DNA from: a virus
Virus record (IMG/VR): IMGVR_UViG_3300037961_003449
Coordinates: 1 to 20,754 of that record
Length of the DNA: 20,754 bases
Reading direction: 5' to 3' (one strand)
In this document: positions 312-20,754 of the stretch, piece by piece
Numbering within the stretch: the stretch's first letter is position 1
Layout of the letters: every line of letters starts with the position of its first letter
Made by a program: the position numbers and the translations under genes
The notes under the pieces: model-generated
What the model was told of the DNA's origin: nothing
Databases searched by the model: none
The model's input: the letters and a program-made list of their open reading frames with translations, nothing else

Positions 312-799
312 TGGGAAAACTTGCAAAACAGATAGAACAACAAATCGACGCGGATTTAGACCAAGCATTTAGGGCTTTTGTTAAATTTGTGTGGCTAGAG
401 CTTTCTACAGAGGTGATTAGCCCTGCTTACACAGGATTTTTTGCGTCTAGCTGGAAAGTAAGCAACACTCGTCCACGCCCCAAAGACGAAGTAGAGAATT
501 TTGCACCTTGGAGCCAGATAAAAAAGGATAAAGCCAGACTAGGCTCTGCTCATAAAGCAATTTCTCCACAAGTTCAGCCTCGTTTTAGTTTTCCTAATTT
601 TACGAGCAGCGACACTGTGTATATAGGAAACACAGCACAGTACGCCCGTTACGCTCTACAACGGCCTAGCGGCATCGTCCCGTTTCTATACAAGGCCGAG
701 GCAGGCGCAAAATTATTTTTCGGGGCAAAGCCTGGTGTGTCGCTTAGAGTTTCTGGTACAGGCACTGATCGTGGCGCTCGTTACCAGGGAGTTGTATGA
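311..799 (+). CDS. Minor tail / tail-completion protein, gpZ or HK97 gp10-like
   Basis: 162 residues. The N-terminal third is helical and charged (AKQIEQQIDADLDQAF). It is followed by TGFFASSWKVS, which resembles the 'SGxLRxSW' turn common in HK97-gp10/gpZ neck proteins, and later by VYIGNTAQYARYA, which resembles the 'N.a.YA.yvE' strand of the same group. Members of this family sit at the head-proximal end of siphovirus tails and complete the tail before head joining. The start ATG overlaps the TGA of the preceding gene, and the stop overlaps the next start as ATGA at 796-799. The neighbours (connector before, terminator after) agree with the assignment. The match is by motif feel and order, so the family is likely but not certain. 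Confidence 0.5.
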   Translation: MGKLAKQIEQQIDADLDQAFRAFVKFVWLELSTEVISPAYTGFFASSWKVSNTRPRPKDEVENFAPWSQIKKDKARLGSAHKAISPQVQPRFSFPNFTSSDTVYIGNTAQYARYALQRPSGIVPFLYKAEAGAKLFFGAKPGVSLRVSGTGTDRGARYQGVV

Positions 800-1224
800 G
801 TCTTGTATCTTCTCGCGCTGCTTTTGAAAAAGCAGTTACTGACGCCGTAACGGCAGCCGATAGCACCGTTTCAATGGTCTACGACAATGTGAGGTTTACG
901 ACGCCCGGTAAAAATAAAAAGTATGTAGTTATGTCAATCACGTACAACCAAACAACAATTCAGACTCACGGCGCTTCATCCGACTTTTATGTAGGCGTTG
1001 TTCAATGCAGTATCTACACACCAAAATCTGCTGGCACGTCTACTTTCTCCGCCATCGGCGAGTCTATAATCGACGGCCTTACGTCTGTAAACGCTCCGGA
1101 CTACACAGATACGTTTAGCTGTAAGCCTCGTGTACTTGAAGTGTCCGGCCCCGTCCCACTGGAGATCGAGGATAGGTCGCACTTTATCGGGCTTGTATCT
1201 TGCCAATTTAGCGCAATAGCGTAG
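796..1224 (+). CDS. Tail terminator protein, gpU-like
   Basis: 142 residues. The pattern is an N-terminal helix (RAAFEKAVTDAVTAA), a strand with YDNVRFTTPGKNKKYVVMSI, then alternating strands with a central helix (FSAIGESIIDGL). This is the layout of the gpU / DUF4128 tail-terminator group, which forms a hexameric ring that stops tail-tube growth and gives the head-binding surface. It overlaps the preceding gene by ATGA. Only 19 bases separate its stop from the earliest start of the next gene. In lambda the tube gene V comes directly after U; here the chaperone G follows at once, which is unusual. Confidence 0.55.
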   Translation: MSLVSSRAAFEKAVTDAVTAADSTVSMVYDNVRFTTPGKNKKYVVMSITYNQTTIQTHGASSDFYVGVVQCSIYTPKSAGTSTFSAIGESIIDGLTSVNAPDYTDTFSCKPRVLEVSGPVPLEIEDRSHFIGLVSCQFSAIA

Positions 1225-1243: not shown

Positions 1244-1609
1244 GTGCTCTTCATGCGAGCTGTTGAACTACTGCGTAACAAGTTTGGCGTAAGCCAGCTT
1301 TATAGCTACGACGTTAAGGCTGATGACGAAGTTATTTTTACGGTTTTTTGGCACCCTTTGACCATCGCAGAGCGTGAGTCGATCCAGAAGAAAGCGGGAT
1401 CTGACGATGCAAACGATTTTGCGCTTGGGTTGATGGTAGAAAAAGCTTTGGATGAAGAAGGCAAGCGTTTGTTCCAAGACGGCGAAAAAGCAACTTTAAA
1501 GAACGCTGTTGACGCCTCTGTTCTTCAAGAAATCCAGCTAGCCATGCTGACCTCTGGAGCGGAGAACAAAGTGGAGGACGCTAAAGCAGACTTGAAAAGC
1601 AAATCCTGA
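1244..1609 (+). CDS. G: Tail assembly chaperone, short form (gpG-like)
   Basis: 121 residues from GTG 1244, or 118 from ATG 1253. No good Shine-Dalgarno sequence precedes either codon; ATG 1253 gives the more natural N-terminus (MRAVELL). The protein is small and acidic. It has a beta-rich first half (VIFTVFWHPLTIAERESI) and a helical second half ending in a charged tail (VEDAKADLKSKS). The family binds the tape measure protein during tail assembly and is absent from the finished virion. The assignment rests mainly on position directly before a T-type extension in another frame and the tape measure gene, the hallmark lambda G/GT/H order. It ends with UCC UGA at 1604-1609, which is probably a programmed +1 frameshift site. 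Confidence 0.8.
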   Translation: MLFMRAVELLRNKFGVSQLYSYDVKADDEVIFTVFWHPLTIAERESIQKKAGSDDANDFALGLMVEKALDEEGKRLFQDGEKATLKNAVDASVLQEIQLAMLTSGAENKVEDAKADLKSKS

Positions 1610-1610
1610 C
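1595..1610 (+). other. Probable programmed +1 ribosomal frameshift site, UCC UGA C
   Basis: The G frame reads AAA AGC AAA TCC TGA and the T frame reads GAC TGG from 1608. Passing from one to the other needs +1 (or -2) movement. UCC UGA is the shift codon pair known from eukaryotic antizyme, and 'UGA C' is the poorly terminated context used in bacterial prfB. Slow termination at UGA with the P-site tRNA slipping by one base is the simplest reading. A slip on the AAAA run at 1595-1598 is a second option. I see no prfB-like internal Shine-Dalgarno sequence upstream. Confidence 0.65.
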
Positions 1611-1793
1611 TGGGTATTTCTGTTTCATGTTGCAAAAGAGCTGGGTATGACGGTGACCCGGCTCTGCCAGGAGCTGACAGTCGAAGAGATGACAGCGTGG
1701 GCTGCCTTCTTCGAGATAAAAGGGGAGGAAGAGGAAAAAGCCATGGAGCGGGCAAAGATGTCCGCGAGGGCGCAGTCTACGGGCAGGCGCTAG
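1608..1793 (+). CDS. T: T domain of frameshifted tail chaperone (gpGT)
   Basis: This is a frame without its own plausible start that encodes 61 residues beginning DWVFLFHVAKELGMTV and containing ELTVEEMTAWAAFFEI, then a charged tail ending STGRR. The 'HVAKELG...ELT.EE...W.AFF' pattern is the typical T domain of lambda-like GT proteins, which links the G part to tail-tube subunits while G coats the tape measure. The frame is +1 relative to G and is closed upstream by TGA at 1593-1595, so the shift must fall between 1596 and 1609. Joined at TCC (1606) to GAC (1608), the product would have about 182 residues (179 from ATG 1253). The stop TAG at 1791 is followed by TAG at 1797 and 1803 in the same frame. 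Confidence 0.85.
   Translation, partial: DWVFLFHVAKELGMTVTRLCQELTVEEMTAWAAFFEIKGEEEEKAMERAKMSARAQSTGRR
1637..1665 (+). other. RNA hairpin downstream of the frameshift site
   Basis: AGAGCTGGGT (1637-1646) pairs with ACCCGGCTCT (1656-1665) in a 10-base-pair stem with one U-G wobble and a nine-base loop. It starts 27 bases after the UGA of G, inside the T coding sequence. It could stimulate frameshifting or affect translation here. The distance is longer than usual for a stimulator (about 5-9 bases), so the role is uncertain. Confidence 0.4.
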
Positions 1794-1820: not shown

Positions 1821-4800
1821 GTGGTACAAGACATCTCACTTGCCGTAAAGGTAGATAAAAGGCAGGTAAAAGATCTTAGTAAGCGCATTGCTGAGGTAGA
1901 GAAGCAAGTAGGTAAGCTCAATAAAGTAAAAATAAATTTAGATACCACTAAGTCGGTACAAAATCTTGAAAAGTTAGAAGCATCGGCAAAAAAACTTATC
2001 AATGCGCTTGGCAAACCTGGGGGCATAAGAGCTGTAAAAAACAGTTTAATTGAAATTTCTGGTGCAAGCGAAAAAGTTTCTGGTCAATTTAGAAGAGCAA
2101 CTACTGCAGTCGAAAGACAAAGTGCTGCTCTCGGTGTTTTAGCGCTACGGTTTAAAGCTCTTAGAGAAGAAGGGCGTTCACTTGTTTTAGGGGGAGCAGG
2201 CCAAACCGCTAGGGGGCAAGGGTTAGGTCTAACCGGACAGGGACTAGATGCTATAGGCAACCCCTCCACAGGCGCAGCGGGCAGCACTAAACAGATTATT
2301 AAAGATCTTTCAAGTTTACCGCGCACGTTAGCAGCATCTAGGCAACAGTTTGCTGAAATTGATTTACTGCTTGAAAATAGTGTTGCCGGTAGCGAATCTT
2401 TTAATTTACTGGCAAAAGCAAGAAACAAATTTGTAGAACGAGAGCTTTCTATCCGCACGCAAATTAAACGAGCGTCTGAGCCTATGCCCGCTGACCCGTT
2501 TGGCACAAAGGTTCCGCTACTTCCCGCAGCAGGGCAAACTTCGGGTAAGTTTCAAGTAAGAACCGATCAAGAGCGTGCCGCAATAAATGCAGCGTTGGAT
2601 AAAAAACTGCAAATAGAAAAATCTATAACTAGAGAAAATGAACGACAAGCTAAAGCAACTAGATCCGCAGCTAGAGAACGCCTTAACAACATCAGAAAAA
2701 TTAGACGAAAGAGGCAGGGTAAACAGTTAAATGATCAGTTACTAGGAGCAGGTTTTCCGCTTTTATTCGGAGGCGGGGCAGGGTCTATAGGCGGGAGCCT
2801 ACTAGGAGGGGCATTAGGCGCTCCTTTTGGCGCGACCTTCGGTGGCCAGATATTCGGTAGTGCTATCGGTCAGCAGTTAGAGCAATCTGTAACTAAAGCG
2901 CTTGAATTAGGAGAAATAACAAAAAATATAAATCTTGATGGTTTACGTGAAGCAGGAATTTTAGTAAATGCAGAATTTCAAATAGCTATTGAAAAACTTG
3001 AGCGTTTAGGTAGGCTGTCTGAAGCTCAAAACATGGTTTCCGAAAAAGTAAGACAGACCACTGGTTTGAGCGGTAAGAGCTTAGAAGGACTTAACGAGAT
3101 ATTCGCTAAGCTGGGGCGCGTAAGTATGCAGTTTGTGCAAAGTTTTGGGGCACTGGTAGGTACTCTTTTGGTGCCCCTTGTTATTGGGCTTACAGGTGCC
3201 CTTGAAGCATTACTCCTACCCTTAAAACTTATAAATGGGTTTTTTGAACTTATTGCTTTAGGTGTTAGAAATTTATATAAAGATCTTGGGGGTACAAAAT
3301 CAGCAGCAGAAATTTTAGGCGGTGTAAACGAAAAGCTAGAAGAAGCAAGAGTAAAAGTTGAAGAACTAGGGCGTGCAATTAGAGAAGAACTTATTAGAAG
3401 CACTGAAGATTTAAACCTTGAAAAACAAATTACACTCGGTTTAACATCTACAGATCGCCTTACTAACATTGATGTAGGTTTACGGCAACAAGAAACACAA
3501 ATAAAAAGAAAGTACGAACCTAGATTTAAAGAGTTATTTAAACTTGGAGGCGGAGACGGGAGCGGAGCGTTTGTACTGGATCAACTTGCGGGTTTAAGTC
3601 AGTTACAAGAAAACGATAAAACTACAGCGCGAATTATAGCAAATCGAAAAAGAGAAAAAGAGACTATAGAACAGACTTTAAGGCTTACCAAAAGCTCATT
3701 AGCCGTAGATAAAGCTAGGTTAGATTTAGAAAAACAGACCGTACAAGAATTTACAAAAATTTTAAGCCTATCTGCAAACGAAACAGAGTTGTTAGAGCTG
3801 AAAAAAGCTGAAAACAAAGTTCTTTTTGACATAGACAAGAAAAAACTAGAAATTAAACTAAAAGAACAACTAGCCGATGTTCGTAATAGAGATATACGTG
3901 ACGACCTTATAGCTTTAAACAACATAGAACTTACTCAATTAACGTCTAAATTTAACCTAGAGCAAGATTTAACAAAAGAACGTGAAAGACAGTTAAAAGT
4001 AGCGTTAGCTAATCAAGACTTGGCTAATGAAGACGCTTTAGCGATTCAAAAATTTGAAGGCGGTGTCAGGCTAAGAGAGCAAGAATTAGCTGTAAACCCC
4101 GCGTTTACGGGACTTTTTGGCGGGTCAATGACTACCGAAGTTTTAGGTAATCTTCGCATTGAGCAAGAGCTATTAAAGCAAAACGCCGCAATAAGAACAG
4201 CCGAAGGAAAAGCTGCAGAGAGTAAAAAAGAATCTGATAGAAAAGCGGCGGAACAGCTTAAACGACAAAGAGACGCATATGTCCAAATAGAAAAAGCTGT
4301 TTTAAGTGCAACTGTATTCCAAGAAAAATACAACGAAGCACTCGCTTTAACTACTCCAGTTGTTGATAGTTTGTTTGATAGCTTACAAGCTGTTGCTGAA
4401 GGAACGAAAACAGCAGAGCAAGCCTTTGCTGACTTCCTAAGAAGCATCGCAGACATGCTGTTCCAAGCAGCTAAACAAATGATCGCCCAATACATCGCGA
4501 TCGGCATCGCTCGTATGTTCGCTGGGATGGGCGGCGGGGACTACAGCGTGTCAGGGGGCGGAATGCCTTTTGGCGGTTCAGGCGCTGCTCCTGCAGGATT
4601 AAACACTTCCAACATGGCAGGTTTCTTTAATCCAGGTGCATTTACAGGCAAAGCTAATGGCGGCTTAGTTTCTGGCAACCGGCCTTATTTGGTCGGAGAA
4701 CGTGGGCCTGAGCTGTTCGTTCCAGGTGCTCAAGGCAACATTGTCCCGAACAGCGCAATGGGCAGCGCTAACGTAACTGTGAACGTCGATGCCTCTGGCT

Positions 4801-4910
4801 CTAGTGTTGAAGGCGATTCTGCCCAAGCAAGTCAACTCGGCAAGATGCTCGGCGCTGCCGTTCAAGCTGAGCTAATTAAACAAAAACGACCTGGAGGTTT
4901 ACTTGCATAA
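1821..4910 (+). CDS. H: Tail tape measure protein (gpH-like)
   Basis: 1029 residues from GTG 1821, the only start in this frame after TAG 1803. Long charged helical and coiled-coil stretches fill residues about 1-300 and 500-830. A glycine-rich segment lies at about 307-350 (GGGAGSIGGSLLGGALG) and a strongly hydrophobic one at about 437-475 (ALVGTLLVPLVIGLTGALEA). The C-terminus carries the lambda-type tape measure region at about 857-893 (FADFLRSIADMLFQAA), then the common ANGGLVSG...YLVGERGPELFVPG end at about 945-970. The protein sets tail length and is probably ejected into the host envelope; the rough rule of 0.15 nm per residue suggests a tail near 150 nm. The first five-sixths is AT-rich and the end is GC-rich. 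It overlaps the next ATG as TAATG. Confidence 0.95.
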   Translation: MVQDISLAVKVDKRQVKDLSKRIAEVEKQVGKLNKVKINLDTTKSVQNLEKLEASAKKLINALGKPGGIRAVKNSLIEISGASEKVSGQFRRATTAVERQSAALGVLALRFKALREEGRSLVLGGAGQTARGQGLGLTGQGLDAIGNPSTGAAGSTKQIIKDLSSLPRTLAASRQQFAEIDLLLENSVAGSESFNLLAKARNKFVERELSIRTQIKRASEPMPADPFGTKVPLLPAAGQTSGKFQVRTDQERAAINAALDKKLQIEKSITRENERQAKATRSAARERLNNIRKIRRKRQGKQLNDQLLGAGFPLLFGGGAGSIGGSLLGGALGAPFGATFGGQIFGSAIGQQLEQSVTKALELGEITKNINLDGLREAGILVNAEFQIAIEKLERLGRLSEAQNMVSEKVRQTTGLSGKSLEGLNEIFAKLGRVSMQFVQSFGALVGTLLVPLVIGLTGALEALLLPLKLINGFFELIALGVRNLYKDLGGTKSAAEILGGVNEKLEEARVKVEELGRAIREELIRSTEDLNLEKQITLGLTSTDRLTNIDVGLRQQETQIKRKYEPRFKELFKLGGGDGSGAFVLDQLAGLSQLQENDKTTARIIANRKREKETIEQTLRLTKSSLAVDKARLDLEKQTVQEFTKILSLSANETELLELKKAENKVLFDIDKKKLEIKLKEQLADVRNRDIRDDLIALNNIELTQLTSKFNLEQDLTKERERQLKVALANQDLANEDALAIQKFEGGVRLREQELAVNPAFTGLFGGSMTTEVLGNLRIEQELLKQNAAIRTAEGKAAESKKESDRKAAEQLKRQRDAYVQIEKAVLSATVFQEKYNEALALTTPVVDSLFDSLQAVAEGTKTAEQAFADFLRSIADMLFQAAKQMIAQYIAIGIARMFAGMGGGDYSVSGGGMPFGGSGAAPAGLNTSNMAGFFNPGAFTGKANGGLVSGNRPYLVGERGPELFVPGAQGNIVPNSAMGSANVTVNVDASGSSVEGDSAQASQLGKMLGAAVQAELIKQKRPGGLLA

Positions 4911-17535: not shown

Positions 17536-17720
17536 GCAATGTTTTCGCCCTAACACTCCTTGTAGTCGGCTTTATCACGGGGAACACTGCGTGGGCGCAT
17601 CACAAGTATGTACCAGAGCAGTCAGTGGACATAACAGAAAATGGAAACCTCACCACTACCGAAAATGCAGAAAGCCAGTACGGTAGTCACGGAAAAAACG
17701 TACTTCACGTCCACCAATGA
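17532..17720 (+). CDS. Small exported His-rich protein
   Basis: 62 residues. Residues 1-22 form a hydrophobic signal peptide with an AWA cleavage end (NVFALTLLVVGFITGNTAWA), leaving a mature peptide of about 40 residues that starts HHKYVPEQ and ends SHGKNVLHVHQ. Five of about 40 mature residues are His, at both ends, which would suit metal binding. It overlaps both neighbours by ATGA. Location would be the periplasm of a Gram-negative or cyanobacterial host. No family is recognised. The coupled reading with the beta-barrel candidate that follows suggests that they work on the same compartment. Confidence 0.65.
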   Translation: MSNVFALTLLVVGFITGNTAWAHHKYVPEQSVDITENGNLTTTENAESQYGSHGKNVLHVHQ

Positions 17721-18079
17721 TCAAAAAGCTTGTTTTTGGTGCAGCCGCTGGCGCACTTGCCTTGGCTCCCCTCTGTGCAGCAAAGGCTGACGGTTTTTAC
17801 CTGAACCCCGAATGGAACGGCGCTTGGAGCGGTTCTAACTTTGGTGGCGCTGTCATGGATGGCCATGTTGGCTGGGAGAAAGGCGCTTTCTACATTCAGG
17901 GTGGTCCTTCTTGGCTGCAGCCTGATGGTGGCGAAACCGAAGTTGGTTTCTCTGCAAAGACCGGCGCTAGCGCACCACTTTCTGACTCCATTGATCTGTA
18001 CGGCGAGGTTTCCTACGCCAAGTACGAAAACATTGACGCAGGTTATGGCCTGAAACTTGGCGGCAAAGTCAAGTTCTGA
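17717..18079 (+). CDS. Exported mini outer-membrane beta-barrel candidate
   Basis: 120 residues with a clear signal peptide (basic MIKK, hydrophobic GAAAGALALAP, cleavage after CAAKA at about residue 24). The mature part of about 96 residues starts DGFYLNPEWNGAWSGSNFGG and alternates polar and apolar residues in strands (HVGWEKGAFYIQGGPSWLQP, EVGFSAKTGAS, LYGEVSYAKYE, GYGLKLGGKVKF). It ends in Phe, the usual recognition residue for outer-membrane insertion. The length suits a small barrel of about six to eight short strands or a multimer. It may change the host surface, for example superinfection exclusion, or help release; both are inference. It ends the operon before a hairpin and a terminator. 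Confidence 0.7.
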   Translation: MIKKLVFGAAAGALALAPLCAAKADGFYLNPEWNGAWSGSNFGGAVMDGHVGWEKGAFYIQGGPSWLQPDGGETEVGFSAKTGASAPLSDSIDLYGEVSYAKYENIDAGYGLKLGGKVKF

Positions 18080-18412: not shown

Positions 18413-19020
18413 TGGCGGAGATCCCTGAGATCGTCATTGACAGGGTTTGGGTCAACGCTCCAGTCTTGTCAGTCCCTGCTGCGCCACCGGTAACGGTCAA
18501 TATCGGCGTGCCAATTATCGACATGCCTGCGTTTGACCCGATGGACTACAGGCCAGACAAGTTAACGGTAGACCCTGAGCCGGTTCTGCCTAACCCGCCC
18601 AGCACGCCAACACCACCACCTCCAGCGCCACCCACGTTGCCACCGGCGAAAGCTGCTGCTGTCGATGTAGATCCAAGATGCCCTCCCCTTCGTGCGAAGG
18701 AGGTTGGAACGCTTGTCCAAAATGGTTCAAAAAGAATTGCTGGCTACGAGTTACAAGACGGTGAATGCGTCGTCCTGTATGAAGAGATCAAGTTGCCTGA
18801 ACAAGTCATAGCAGCAATTCCGTCTCTTCCGCAGGTCACAACGGTGGGGGTAACCGCTGCTGTGGGTGTGACTGCTGGTTTAGCAACGCCGCTGCTGCTT
18901 AAGGCTGTGAAACCTGCTGTGAAGAAGATTGCGAAGAAGATCCAGTCTTTGCTGGGGCGTAAGGCGAAACCGGTAAGCGTATTTGAGAGGAGACGGGCGC
19001 AGCGGTTGGCGCGGAAATAG
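18412..19020 (+). CDS. Proline-rich protein with C-terminal membrane/basic segment
   Basis: 202 residues from GTG 18412. The N-terminal part has repeating Val/Pro strands (VWVNAPVLSVPAAPPVTVNI, GVPIIDMPAFDPMDY). Residues about 55-85 are an extended Pro run (LPNPPSTPTPPPPAPPTLPP), which could span a periplasm or bind partners. A small domain with two Cys (DPRCPPLRAKEVG, LQDGECVVLYEEI) follows. The end has a hydrophobic segment at about 145-165 (VGVTAAVGVTAGLATPLLL) and a very basic tail (KKIAKKIQSLLGRKAK, RRRAQRLARK). The Pro-rich link plus membrane end recalls TonB- or spanin-like bridging proteins only in outline. The last 122 bases also code the end of the - strand gene. No family name is known to me. 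Confidence 0.65.
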   Translation: MAEIPEIVIDRVWVNAPVLSVPAAPPVTVNIGVPIIDMPAFDPMDYRPDKLTVDPEPVLPNPPSTPTPPPPAPPTLPPAKAAAVDVDPRCPPLRAKEVGTLVQNGSKRIAGYELQDGECVVLYEEIKLPEQVIAAIPSLPQVTTVGVTAAVGVTAGLATPLLLKAVKPAVKKIAKKIQSLLGRKAKPVSVFERRRAQRLARK

Positions 19021-19810
19021 CGTGTCTGTGCGGCAGAACTTGCCCTGGCTTGGGCTTAATTACAACATCGGCGCAGACAGCAAAGTAAGGCGACTTGGGG
19101 TGAAACTCAATGCCTTTTAGCTTGAGTTCGCCGCAGTTCTTGAGCCTGGCAATTTCATACTCAAGCCGCTTTGTTTCTGCGATCTGCCTGTGCAGTTTGA
19201 TGTTGGCATCAGCCATAGCCTTGCATCGTTCTTGGAGGCCACCATCTAGAGGAATTGTTGCCTGGATCGACAAACCACCTGACCAGTTGTGAGTGTCTTT
19301 TTGACCTGTCCTGGTGGGCATTGTGTAGAGGACTCGTCCAGGATTATCGAGTACCCCATCCTCATTAAGATCAGAAAGGTCATATACGGGATCAGGAAAG
19401 TAATCCACATACGGAAGTTGCCAGCTTTTGGACCTATTGACATAAGGAGTGACCGTAATGATGGGACCTTGGCATTGAATGCCGTTACCAAAGGAATTAG
19501 TGAATGCTTGCGATGGAGCAATCATCACTGCTTGGTTTGTGACGCTTCCAGAACTGGTTGCGCTTGGAGCGGCGGTAGCAGACACGCCACCAATTGTTTC
19601 AGCATTGACTGGTGAGGCCAGGGCTAAAAGGGAAAGTGCTATTGGCTGAACGTACTTATAGTGTCCGTAATCTGATTGATCTCCGTCACTTTTTGCACAG
19701 TCGTTATGTTTGAAAGCCCTGGCCCTTTGTAGGTTTCTGAGAACTGCATAGCCGCTCCAGGGGTAATGATCTCCCAGCTTGGCTTGTTGTTCACGTCGAG
19801 GGCTGACCAT
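18899..19810 (-). CDS. Exported protein with coiled coil, start codon uncertain
   Basis: The open frame gives 303 residues from ATG 19810, but that start lies 172 bases inside the preceding gene. A signal-peptide-like segment (KYVQPIALSLLALASPVNA) begins only at residue 52, with no ATG, GTG or TTG near it. The next ordinary start, GTG 19585, would remove the segment. The mature part has a Ser/Thr-rich start, YVDYFPDPVYDLSDLNEDGV (possibly Ca-binding), GGLSIQATIPLDGGLQERC, then a coiled coil (IKLHRQIAETKRLEYEIARL) and KGIEFHPKSPYFAVCADVV, with Cys residues at both ends of the coil. I associate such proteins with cyanophage genomes. The tail is Ser/Gln-rich. Function unknown. Confidence 0.65.
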   Translation of the reverse strand: MVSPRREQQAKLGDHYPWSGYAVLRNLQRARAFKHNDCAKSDGDQSDYGHYKYVQPIALSLLALASPVNAETIGGVSATAAPSATSSGSVTNQAVMIAPSQAFTNSFGNGIQCQGPIITVTPYVNRSKSWQLPYVDYFPDPVYDLSDLNEDGVLDNPGRVLYTMPTRTGQKDTHNWSGGLSIQATIPLDGGLQERCKAMADANIKLHRQIAETKRLEYEIARLKNCGELKLKGIEFHPKSPYFAVCADVVIKPKPGQVLPHRHAISAPTAAPVSSQIRLPVSPYAPAKTGSSSQSSSQQVSQP

Positions 19811-20064
19811 TCATTTACGGTTGTTGTGCCTGGGGTAAGGCTGGCCCCGTTGACCGGGCCGATGTTAGTGCCGCTTACAGAGTATTCCCATCCAGTGCTG
19901 TAAGTTTCAGAGACTATGGTCTCCGTGACCTTGCTGGTGGTTTCAGTGTGGCTAGTCATGCTGCCGGTTTGAAAGTTAGGAATAACCGGAGCCGATTGCG
20001 CGGGTTTAGCGAAAGCAAGCATTTCTCCTGCTAACCCGCAAAGCAGCAACAAAAGAACTCGCAT
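19639..20064 (-). CDS. Small exported Thr/Ser-rich protein
   Basis: 141 residues. The ATG at 20064 comes directly after the TAA of the preceding gene (TAAATG). A signal peptide spans about residues 1-25 (MRVLLLLLCGLAGEMLAFAK, cleavage near AQSA). The mature part is rich in Thr, Ser, Glu and Val: TETTSKVTETIVSETYSTGW, then GWEYSVSGTNIGPVNGASL, NEWSALDVNNKPSWEIITPG and MQFSETYKGPGLSNI, and it ends in a repeated TTVQKVTEINQITDTISTF pattern. This suggests a beta-rich, perhaps multimeric, periplasmic or surface protein. The end of the gene overlaps the open frame of the next one, so the three exported proteins are probably made from one message. No family recognised. Confidence 0.7.
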   Translation of the reverse strand: MRVLLLLLCGLAGEMLAFAKPAQSAPVIPNFQTGSMTSHTETTSKVTETIVSETYSTGWEYSVSGTNIGPVNGASLTPGTTTVNEWSALDVNNKPSWEIITPGAAMQFSETYKGPGLSNITTVQKVTEINQITDTISTFSQ

Positions 20065-20553
20065 TTAATCGATTTTCAGCTCAGTAACAAACTGGCCGAT
20101 TGCCAAGGTGTTAGCCCCACCGCCGGTAACGGTTAGTGCTCCTGCCGGGGTAATTGTGCCTGCAAGTGTGCCAAGCGTCCCAGCAGCTGTGCTCTGCAAG
20201 CTGGAAAAATTAGGGGTTTCGCCTGTTGTTATTGCTGATGTTGGGACGGCATCGGCCTGAGTGTATGACTGGCTGAAGCTGAAAGCGTTGCCGGGTGTGT
20301 CTTGCGTTGCAGCGATTGTGCCTGGAGCGTAAACACCGGACGTGATCGTACCTGCTGAAATCGTATTTGCTGTAGTGCCGTCAGTCGTATCAACTCCTGA
20401 ACCGCTGATTGAAAAGCTGGAGCCGATTCTGTCTGCTGTAGTCATAGCCCCGCCTACTTGGAGGCTGACTGAGCTGGTGATTTTGTGCATTAAGTCAGCA
20501 TGAGCTGCTGGGCCGAAAGCCAGCAACGTAACCAAAGGCAGGAAGTGCTTCAT
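20065..20553 (-). CDS. Small exported Thr/Gly/Ser-rich protein
   Basis: 162 residues. AGGAG lies about nine bases before the ATG at 20553, and the ATG overlaps the stop of the holin-like gene (ATGA). A signal peptide (MKHFLPLVTLLAFGPAAHA) is followed by DLMHKITSSVSLQVGGAMTT, then ADRIGSSFSISGSGVDTTDG, and a Thr/Gly/Ala-rich, nearly Lys- and Cys-free body with many short strands (NTISAGTITSGVYAPGTIAA, GTLGTLAGTITPAGALTVTG). I associate the 'HK..SSV.L.V.ga.t.a.RIGSSfS.SG' opening with small secreted proteins in marine cyanophages, without a known role. It is likely a secreted beta-structured or surface-assembling protein. Confidence 0.72.
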   Translation of the reverse strand: MKHFLPLVTLLAFGPAAHADLMHKITSSVSLQVGGAMTTADRIGSSFSISGSGVDTTDGTTANTISAGTITSGVYAPGTIAATQDTPGNAFSFSQSYTQADAVPTSAITTGETPNFSSLQSTAAGTLGTLAGTITPAGALTVTGGGANTLAIGQFVTELKID

Positions 20554-20750
20554 TTTGGTGGCTCCTTTGAGTCAATCTTAGGTGGCTGTTTTTTCTGCTG
20601 GTTAGCAGACTTGCGCTCAATACCAAAAGAGGCCATTGCCCCCGTGAGCAAGCTAGCCACAAAAGTATTGTCCATTTTCATCTGCGGGAAGAAACCCAAA
20701 TAAGAGACTGTTAGCAATGTCGCGCTCCACACCAAAACAGCGCATTTCAC
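20550..20750 (-). CDS. Holin-like small membrane protein (may continue past window edge)
   Basis: 66 residues from GTG 20750, four bases from the window end; an upstream start cannot be excluded. Two hydrophobic segments at about 4-21 (AVLVWSATLLTVSYLGFF) and 29-44 (TFVASLLTGAMASFGI) are joined by a short loop (PQMKMDN), and a charged Lys-rich tail (KSANQQKKQPPKIDSKEPPK) follows. This is the layout of class II holins, which make lesions in the inner membrane at lysis. No endolysin is visible nearby, so holin is only a topological suggestion. Its TGA overlaps the next ATG, linking it to the three exported proteins downstream. Confidence 0.6.
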   Translation of the reverse strand: MKCAVLVWSATLLTVSYLGFFPQMKMDNTFVASLLTGAMASFGIERKSANQQKKQPPKIDSKEPPK

Positions 20751-20754
20751 AAGG

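Follow-up and report, generated by a model that had tools for sequence, protein, structure and literature searches.

Two reading frames overlap in the tail module of an uncultured virus, and the question they raise is how ribosomes would pass from one to the other, and on which bases. We analyzed a stretch of 20,754 bases (hereafter the window), part of a 21,655-base uncultured virus record. The upstream gene, G, ends in ...GCA GAC TTG AAA AGC AAA TCC TGA, followed by C, and the downstream frame, T, lies at +1 (or -2) relative to G. A preliminary description had placed the frame change at the terminal UCC UGA C. Our ORF positions agreed with its account of the G end and of a T frame that no move other than +1 (or -2) can reach. 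These frames are best explained by a programmed shift joining G and T. Comparison with relatives placed the predicted slip site elsewhere, at AAA AGC.

Locus and tail-module identity

The genes at the locus are as follows.
796-1224, plus strand: tail terminator (PF13554, 4.9e-06; phrog_179, 3.5e-12)
1244-1609, plus strand: gene G in the 0 frame, encoding a tail assembly chaperone (start GTG 1244 or ATG 1253; stop TGA 1607-1609)
1596-1793, plus strand: T frame (+1/-2), predicted from profiles, lack of start codons and frame conservation to be made only as a G-T fusion, KANPDWVFLFHVAKELG... to TAG
1821-4910, plus strand: tape measure protein, directly 3' of T (phrog_8892 and phrog_10574)

The preliminary description had already taken G and T for a tail-chaperone pair, an assignment borne out here by profiles, neighboring genes and protein fold; the pair is of the lambda G/GT type. 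G matched phrog_20784 (5.7e-24) and two tail assembly chaperone profiles, phrog_344 (5.7e-05) and phrog_16513. The T frame, 65 aa long, is open from 1596 to 1793, reads KANPDWVFLFHVAKELGMTVTRLCQELTVEEMTAWAAFFEI... and matched the tail profiles phrog_26456 (1.5e-07) and phrog_337 (1.6e-05). When G was modeled with AlphaFold (mean pLDDT 76), the top PDB match of the model was the HK97 tail assembly chaperone 2OB9 (prob 1.00, E 7e-3, TM about 0.5). The tail terminator lies before the pair and the tape measure gene after it, as expected for G/GT. Pfam and NCBIfam profiles gave no meaningful match to G or T, a PDB sequence search found no relative, and neither Rfam nor tRNA scanning returned a hit in the window.

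Some further features of these genomes were observed in passing. Unlike Dubu, the window has no major tail protein gene of its own in the interval from the tail terminator to G (1224-1253); in locus L172, a 143-codon ORF at ~1427, toward the terminase end, resembles a tail tube protein by eye. The small protein encoded at 17717-18079 seems to carry a signal peptide and has a beta-rich, outer-membrane-barrel-like look (phrog_417, function unknown), and a block of secreted-looking proteins occupies the minus strand at 18899-20753, after the plus-strand tail module (phrog_564 and phrog_650, function unknown). BFVD entry D6PII1, a viral protein of 179 aa that is 68% identical to G, has the length of the G-T fusion; it may be an in-frame G-T fusion, which would weigh against the shift proposed below, or an annotation effect.

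Frame relation among relatives

G/T relatives were taken from IMG/VR, GenBank phages and one Prochlorococcus single-cell contig (AG-418-M08), and their frames were typed with G and T profile HMMs, leaving the slip site unassumed. T was at +1/-2 in 314 and at -1 in 40 of the 354 relatives with overlapping G and T. One further locus, L127, was typed as 0-frame, the sole such case, and has a deletion inside G. Grouping the +1 loci at 90% identity yielded 88 clusters. Counts across these relatives reflect shared ancestry and are not independent, a concern that is lessened by the spread of the 88 clusters across four groups and by a shift direction that changed at least three times.

The identical frame relation recurred in hundreds of independent contigs, in a Prochlorococcus SAG contig and in GenBank MH327491, which excludes a sequencing error. 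The signals that bear on the position of the shift are listed here.
1571-1579, plus strand: Shine-Dalgarno (SD)-like element GTGGAGGAC, with core GGAGG at 1573-1577, 17 nt before AAA
1593-1595, plus strand: T-frame stop TGA just 5' of the slip, which sets the 5' limit for a shift; a T-frame stop stands here in 71/88 clusters
1595-1600, plus strand: putative slip site AAA AGC (P-site AAA 1595-1597, A-site AGC 1598-1600; +1 re-pairing on AAA 1596-1598, then GCA for Ala)
1604-1610, plus strand: TCC TGA C of the preliminary description (TCC 1604-1606, the last codon of G; TGA 1607-1609, the stop; C 1610, the next base)

Since the T frame opens just 3' of the TGA at 1593-1595, the shift must fall within about 1595-1609. 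No ATG, GTG or TTG was found in the T frame 5' of the conserved DW motif, and in the near-identical locus L002 the first T-frame start is an ATG at codon 17. The same three codons are lacking from the first 12 T codons in 69/88 clusters, making separate initiation of T unlikely.

Conservation of AAA AGC

An in-frame AAA AGN occurred within the permitted overlap in all 314 of the +1 loci (AGC in 304, AGT in 6, AGA in 4). The conserved lysine codon was AAA in 88/88 clusters, against 496 AAA to 339 AAG in the rest of G, and the codon after it was AGC in 82/88, against 89 of 448 among other Ser codons. In-frame AAA AG was scarce in the rest of G, with 12 instances among 9,667 codon pairs. The four bases AAA A, which let one tRNA pair with both the P-site codon and the codon at +1, were kept in all 88 clusters, so that AAA pairing after a +1 slip would be perfect in every cluster.

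G stopped 1-9 codons past the conserved AAA, with TAA in 42, TGA in 43 and TAG in 3 of the clusters. Many members, such as TTG AAA AGC TAA TAG CGA CTG G, have a stop directly after AGC and a T frame that opens at the same AAA, so that no other slip site is possible in them. The T peptide was conserved from the first codon past AAA (A-L-K-x-x-L-x-x-D-N and A-I-E-x-E-L-E-S-D in two distant groups), and the 0-frame tail past AGC varied in both sequence and length (for instance SVKG, STQA, SGEAGAKEG, SD). In a scan of 2.9 million viral contigs, at least 120 matches to the D-L-K-A-N-x-D-W junction ran through AAAAGC and none through AAAGC, the unshifted form. No relative with an AAG junction (AAGAGY) was found in the same contigs; the sole AAG match, L490, was an unrelated chance match.

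The codon before AAA was NTG or NTA in most clusters, encoding Leu in some groups and Met in others. This codon is what puts the T-frame stop directly 5' of the slip in the 71 clusters that have one, and an E-site effect is also possible.

AAA AGC was not avoided in other ORFs of these phages, the observed and expected counts being 5 vs 4.8 in the window, 9 vs 7.9 in clade A and 4 vs 4.9 in clade B. A rare-codon explanation for AGC was rejected for the window, where AGC reaches 28.7 per 1000 codons (13.0 in clade A and 3.5 in clade B). Both findings make it unlikely that the hexamer is highly slippery on its own, and its lack of avoidance elsewhere suggests that AAA AGC by itself shifts poorly and that context matters.

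Proposed mechanism and alternatives

From this conservation we infer that G and GT are in all likelihood joined by a +1 slip at AAA AGC (1595-1600), taken by a minority of ribosomes, in which P-site tRNA-Lys re-pairs. With AGC waiting in the A site, peptidyl-tRNA-Lys would release AAA 1595-1597 and pair again, perfectly, one base further on with AAA 1596-1598. Ala-tRNA would then read GCA 1599-1601, giving the shifted product ...EDAKADLK-ANPDWVFLFHVAKELG..., and the predicted tryptic junction peptide for a shift at AAA AGC is ANPDWVFLFHVAK. The junction would therefore read ...DLKANPDWVF... in place of the ...LKSKSDWVF... expected from a shift at UCC UGA. Ribosomes that do not shift would read AGC AAA TCC and terminate at TGA.

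The preliminary description favored an RF2-dependent slip at UCC UGA C, as in antizyme or prfB. In such a slip, P-site tRNA-Ser would move from UCC to CCU while a weak UGA C awaits RF2. The string is indeed present in the window, T is open there and TCC TGA recurs in four other clusters. It is absent, however, from 83/88 clusters, among them relatives of ~71-73% identity that keep AAA AGC, and the T frame of most relatives opens only at AAA AGC, 5' of any TCC. Homologues thus do not keep TCC TGA C and show a different slip site, an observation that the preliminary description had itself listed against its proposal. The five clusters with TCC TGA are always those in which T reads K-A-x-P-D-W, and the string is a by-product of T-frame Pro-Asp-Trp, coded CCT GAC TGG. 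The window also has no SD-like element at a distance of 3 nt before the string, its slip sequence is not CTTT, and a slip at UCC UGA C would leave the conservation of AAA AGC unexplained. For both the antizyme and the prfB class, defining features were sought and were absent or not conserved, and a general RF2/UGA switch is ruled out by the TAA and TAG stops in about half of the relatives. We consider a slip at UCC UGA C unlikely.

A slip of -2 at the same place as the +1 slip, as proposed for phage Mu, would reach the same frame, and -2 slips are known in that phage (PMC5009743). The two products differ by only one lysine, the -2 product being LKKANPD. With -2, tRNA-Lys would land on TGA, TAA, TCA or similar codons with mismatches, against perfect pairing in 88/88 clusters with +1. 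The -2 direction is accordingly somewhat less likely again than a slip at UCC UGA C. Independent translation of T, through reinitiation or an internal start, is very improbable. A strong SD-like sequence does lie 5' of the junction and could aid such a start, but TGA or TAA closes T just 5' of AAA in those same 71 clusters, most clusters have no start among their first T codons, and the TTG before AAA is swapped for TTA or CTC in relatives and hence is not a start. We rejected the SD-like sequence as a T start signal, a start codon at a workable position being absent. We give next to no credence to an assembly error or to slippage during transcription of the A run. The site does hold four A's, but transcriptional realignment has been linked to far longer runs, of >7 A's (PMC3711429), and the junction is found in hundreds of contigs, with the one-base-shorter form in none. 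A +1 slip at AAA AGC remains the preferred reading.

Upstream Shine-Dalgarno-like element

An SD-like element occurs in the window and at the corresponding position in loci L002-L172. In clade A (15 clusters), to which the window belongs, the codons GTG GAG GAC set GGAGG 17 nt 5' of AAA. The AT-rich clade B (34 clusters) had AAG GAG GTN, AGA GGA GTN or AAG GGG GTN, or one of a small number of close variants, at -30 to -22. In both clades this element was the strongest anti-Shine-Dalgarno site of the gene and was stronger than in synonymous shuffles. The clade B codons that form it were otherwise uncommon (AAG 59/293 Lys, GAG 41/274 Glu, GGG 3/121 Gly) and the amino acids they encode varied, which points to selection on the nucleotides. 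The element was weak in groups C and D and absent in the -1 relatives.

SD stimulators are spaced 3 nt from the slip in the prfB +1 shift (PMC12421855) and 8-11 nt in -1 shifts (PMC6321510). At 17-23 nt from the slip, the element reported here lies outside both spacings, and it may or may not stimulate the +1 slip. A downstream stem-loop stimulator was rejected, as no conserved nested fold was found downstream in clade A or clade B. A mini-hairpin, GGC-UAAA-GCC at -16..-7, was likewise set aside; in clade B, where it is seen, it mostly follows from the codons for Ala-Lys-Ala, and in clade A no more than two pairs form.

Evolution of shift direction

When 54 G/T proteins were placed on a maximum-likelihood tree, three changes of shift direction were needed, and the branches with good support alone require no fewer than three. 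The L195/L202-like +1 clade was nested in a -1 KBS-S-2A-like set. Irrespective of the order in which sites were gained and lost, all +1 lineages had AAA AGN and most -1 relatives NNA AAA AAC. The loci L195, L202, L206 and their kin, which are distant from the window, read GAC ATG AAA AGC, again a +1 arrangement.

We tentatively suggest, as a possibility that we rate below even, that AAA AGC (with a sense A-site codon and no need of a stop), together with a nucleotide-selected SD-like sequence 17-23 nt upstream, may form a candidate +1 recoding element that recurs in bacterial viruses, in a gene family whose shift changed at least three times between the -1 site A AAA AAC and the +1 site AAA AGC. 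The presence of -1 (A AAA AAC) and +1 (AAA AGC) sites in one family makes the evolution of shift direction under a fixed need for GT testable, and the +1 slip motif, common to hundreds of marine and freshwater phage contigs, is itself testable. In the cyanophage records examined, the G-T fusion was unannotated; the AAA AGC site can guide annotators in joining G and T of such phages.

Comparison with known systems

The tail chaperones of different phages use -1, -2 or +1 shifts (PMC5009743), and the marine phage studied here very probably joins its tail-chaperone frames by a +1 ribosomal slip. The arrangement resembles lambda gpG/gpGT in having the gene before the tape measure, a short G with a C-terminal T extension and an overlap at the end of G. 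It differs in direction, since lambda slips -1 and the window would slip +1 at AAA AGC. Several cyanophages shift -1 at A AAA AAC-type sites. Cyanophages KBS-S-2A, S-H1 and MED4-117 are -1 relatives by our typing and fall in the same protein tree as the window, whose T frame at +1/-2 places it outside the -1 heptamer class.

Among +1 cases, the tail chaperone of halovirus HSTV-2 is similar in that its G/GT pair very likely shifts +1 (PMC5009743), with a run of identical bases (GGG GGC) near the end of gene 22. HSTV-2 is an unrelated archaeal myovirus, and its run is of G rather than AAA AGC. For the SEA-PHAGES chaperones, PRFect has 350 forward positive cases and a forward 'four' motif, XXXX (PMC10885494). 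The AAA A of the window fits XXXX, and the part of that report considered here describes neither an AAA AGC family nor a conserved upstream SD-like element nor a marine cyanophage clade. Listeria PSA tsh and SPP1 gp17.1 also have +1 shifts in phage structural genes, at CCC UGA or CCC UAA. There a rare Pro codon is followed by a stop, in contrast to the window, where AAA is followed by sense AGC and the stop comes 1-9 codons later in the family.

The prfB and antizyme shifts share the +1 direction with the window, and UGA C or UCC UGA is present at the end of its G. The proposed AAA AGC G/GT shift is outside both classes. In prfB an AGGGGG-type SD ends 3 nt before the slip (PMC12421855), whereas the bases before TCC in the window are GACTTGAAAAGCAAA and the core of its SD-like element ends 26 nt before TCC. 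prfB also has a CTTT slip and an RF2-specific TGA C, unlike the TCC TGA C of the window and the varying stops of its relatives. Antizyme combines a conserved UCC UGA with downstream structure, and UCC UGA is confined to 5/88 clusters here. Tail chaperones with a +1 shift are already known or proposed, in HSTV-2 and at the SEA-PHAGES forward sites; for AAA AGC or AAAAGC as a frameshift site, a search of open-licence full text returned no description.
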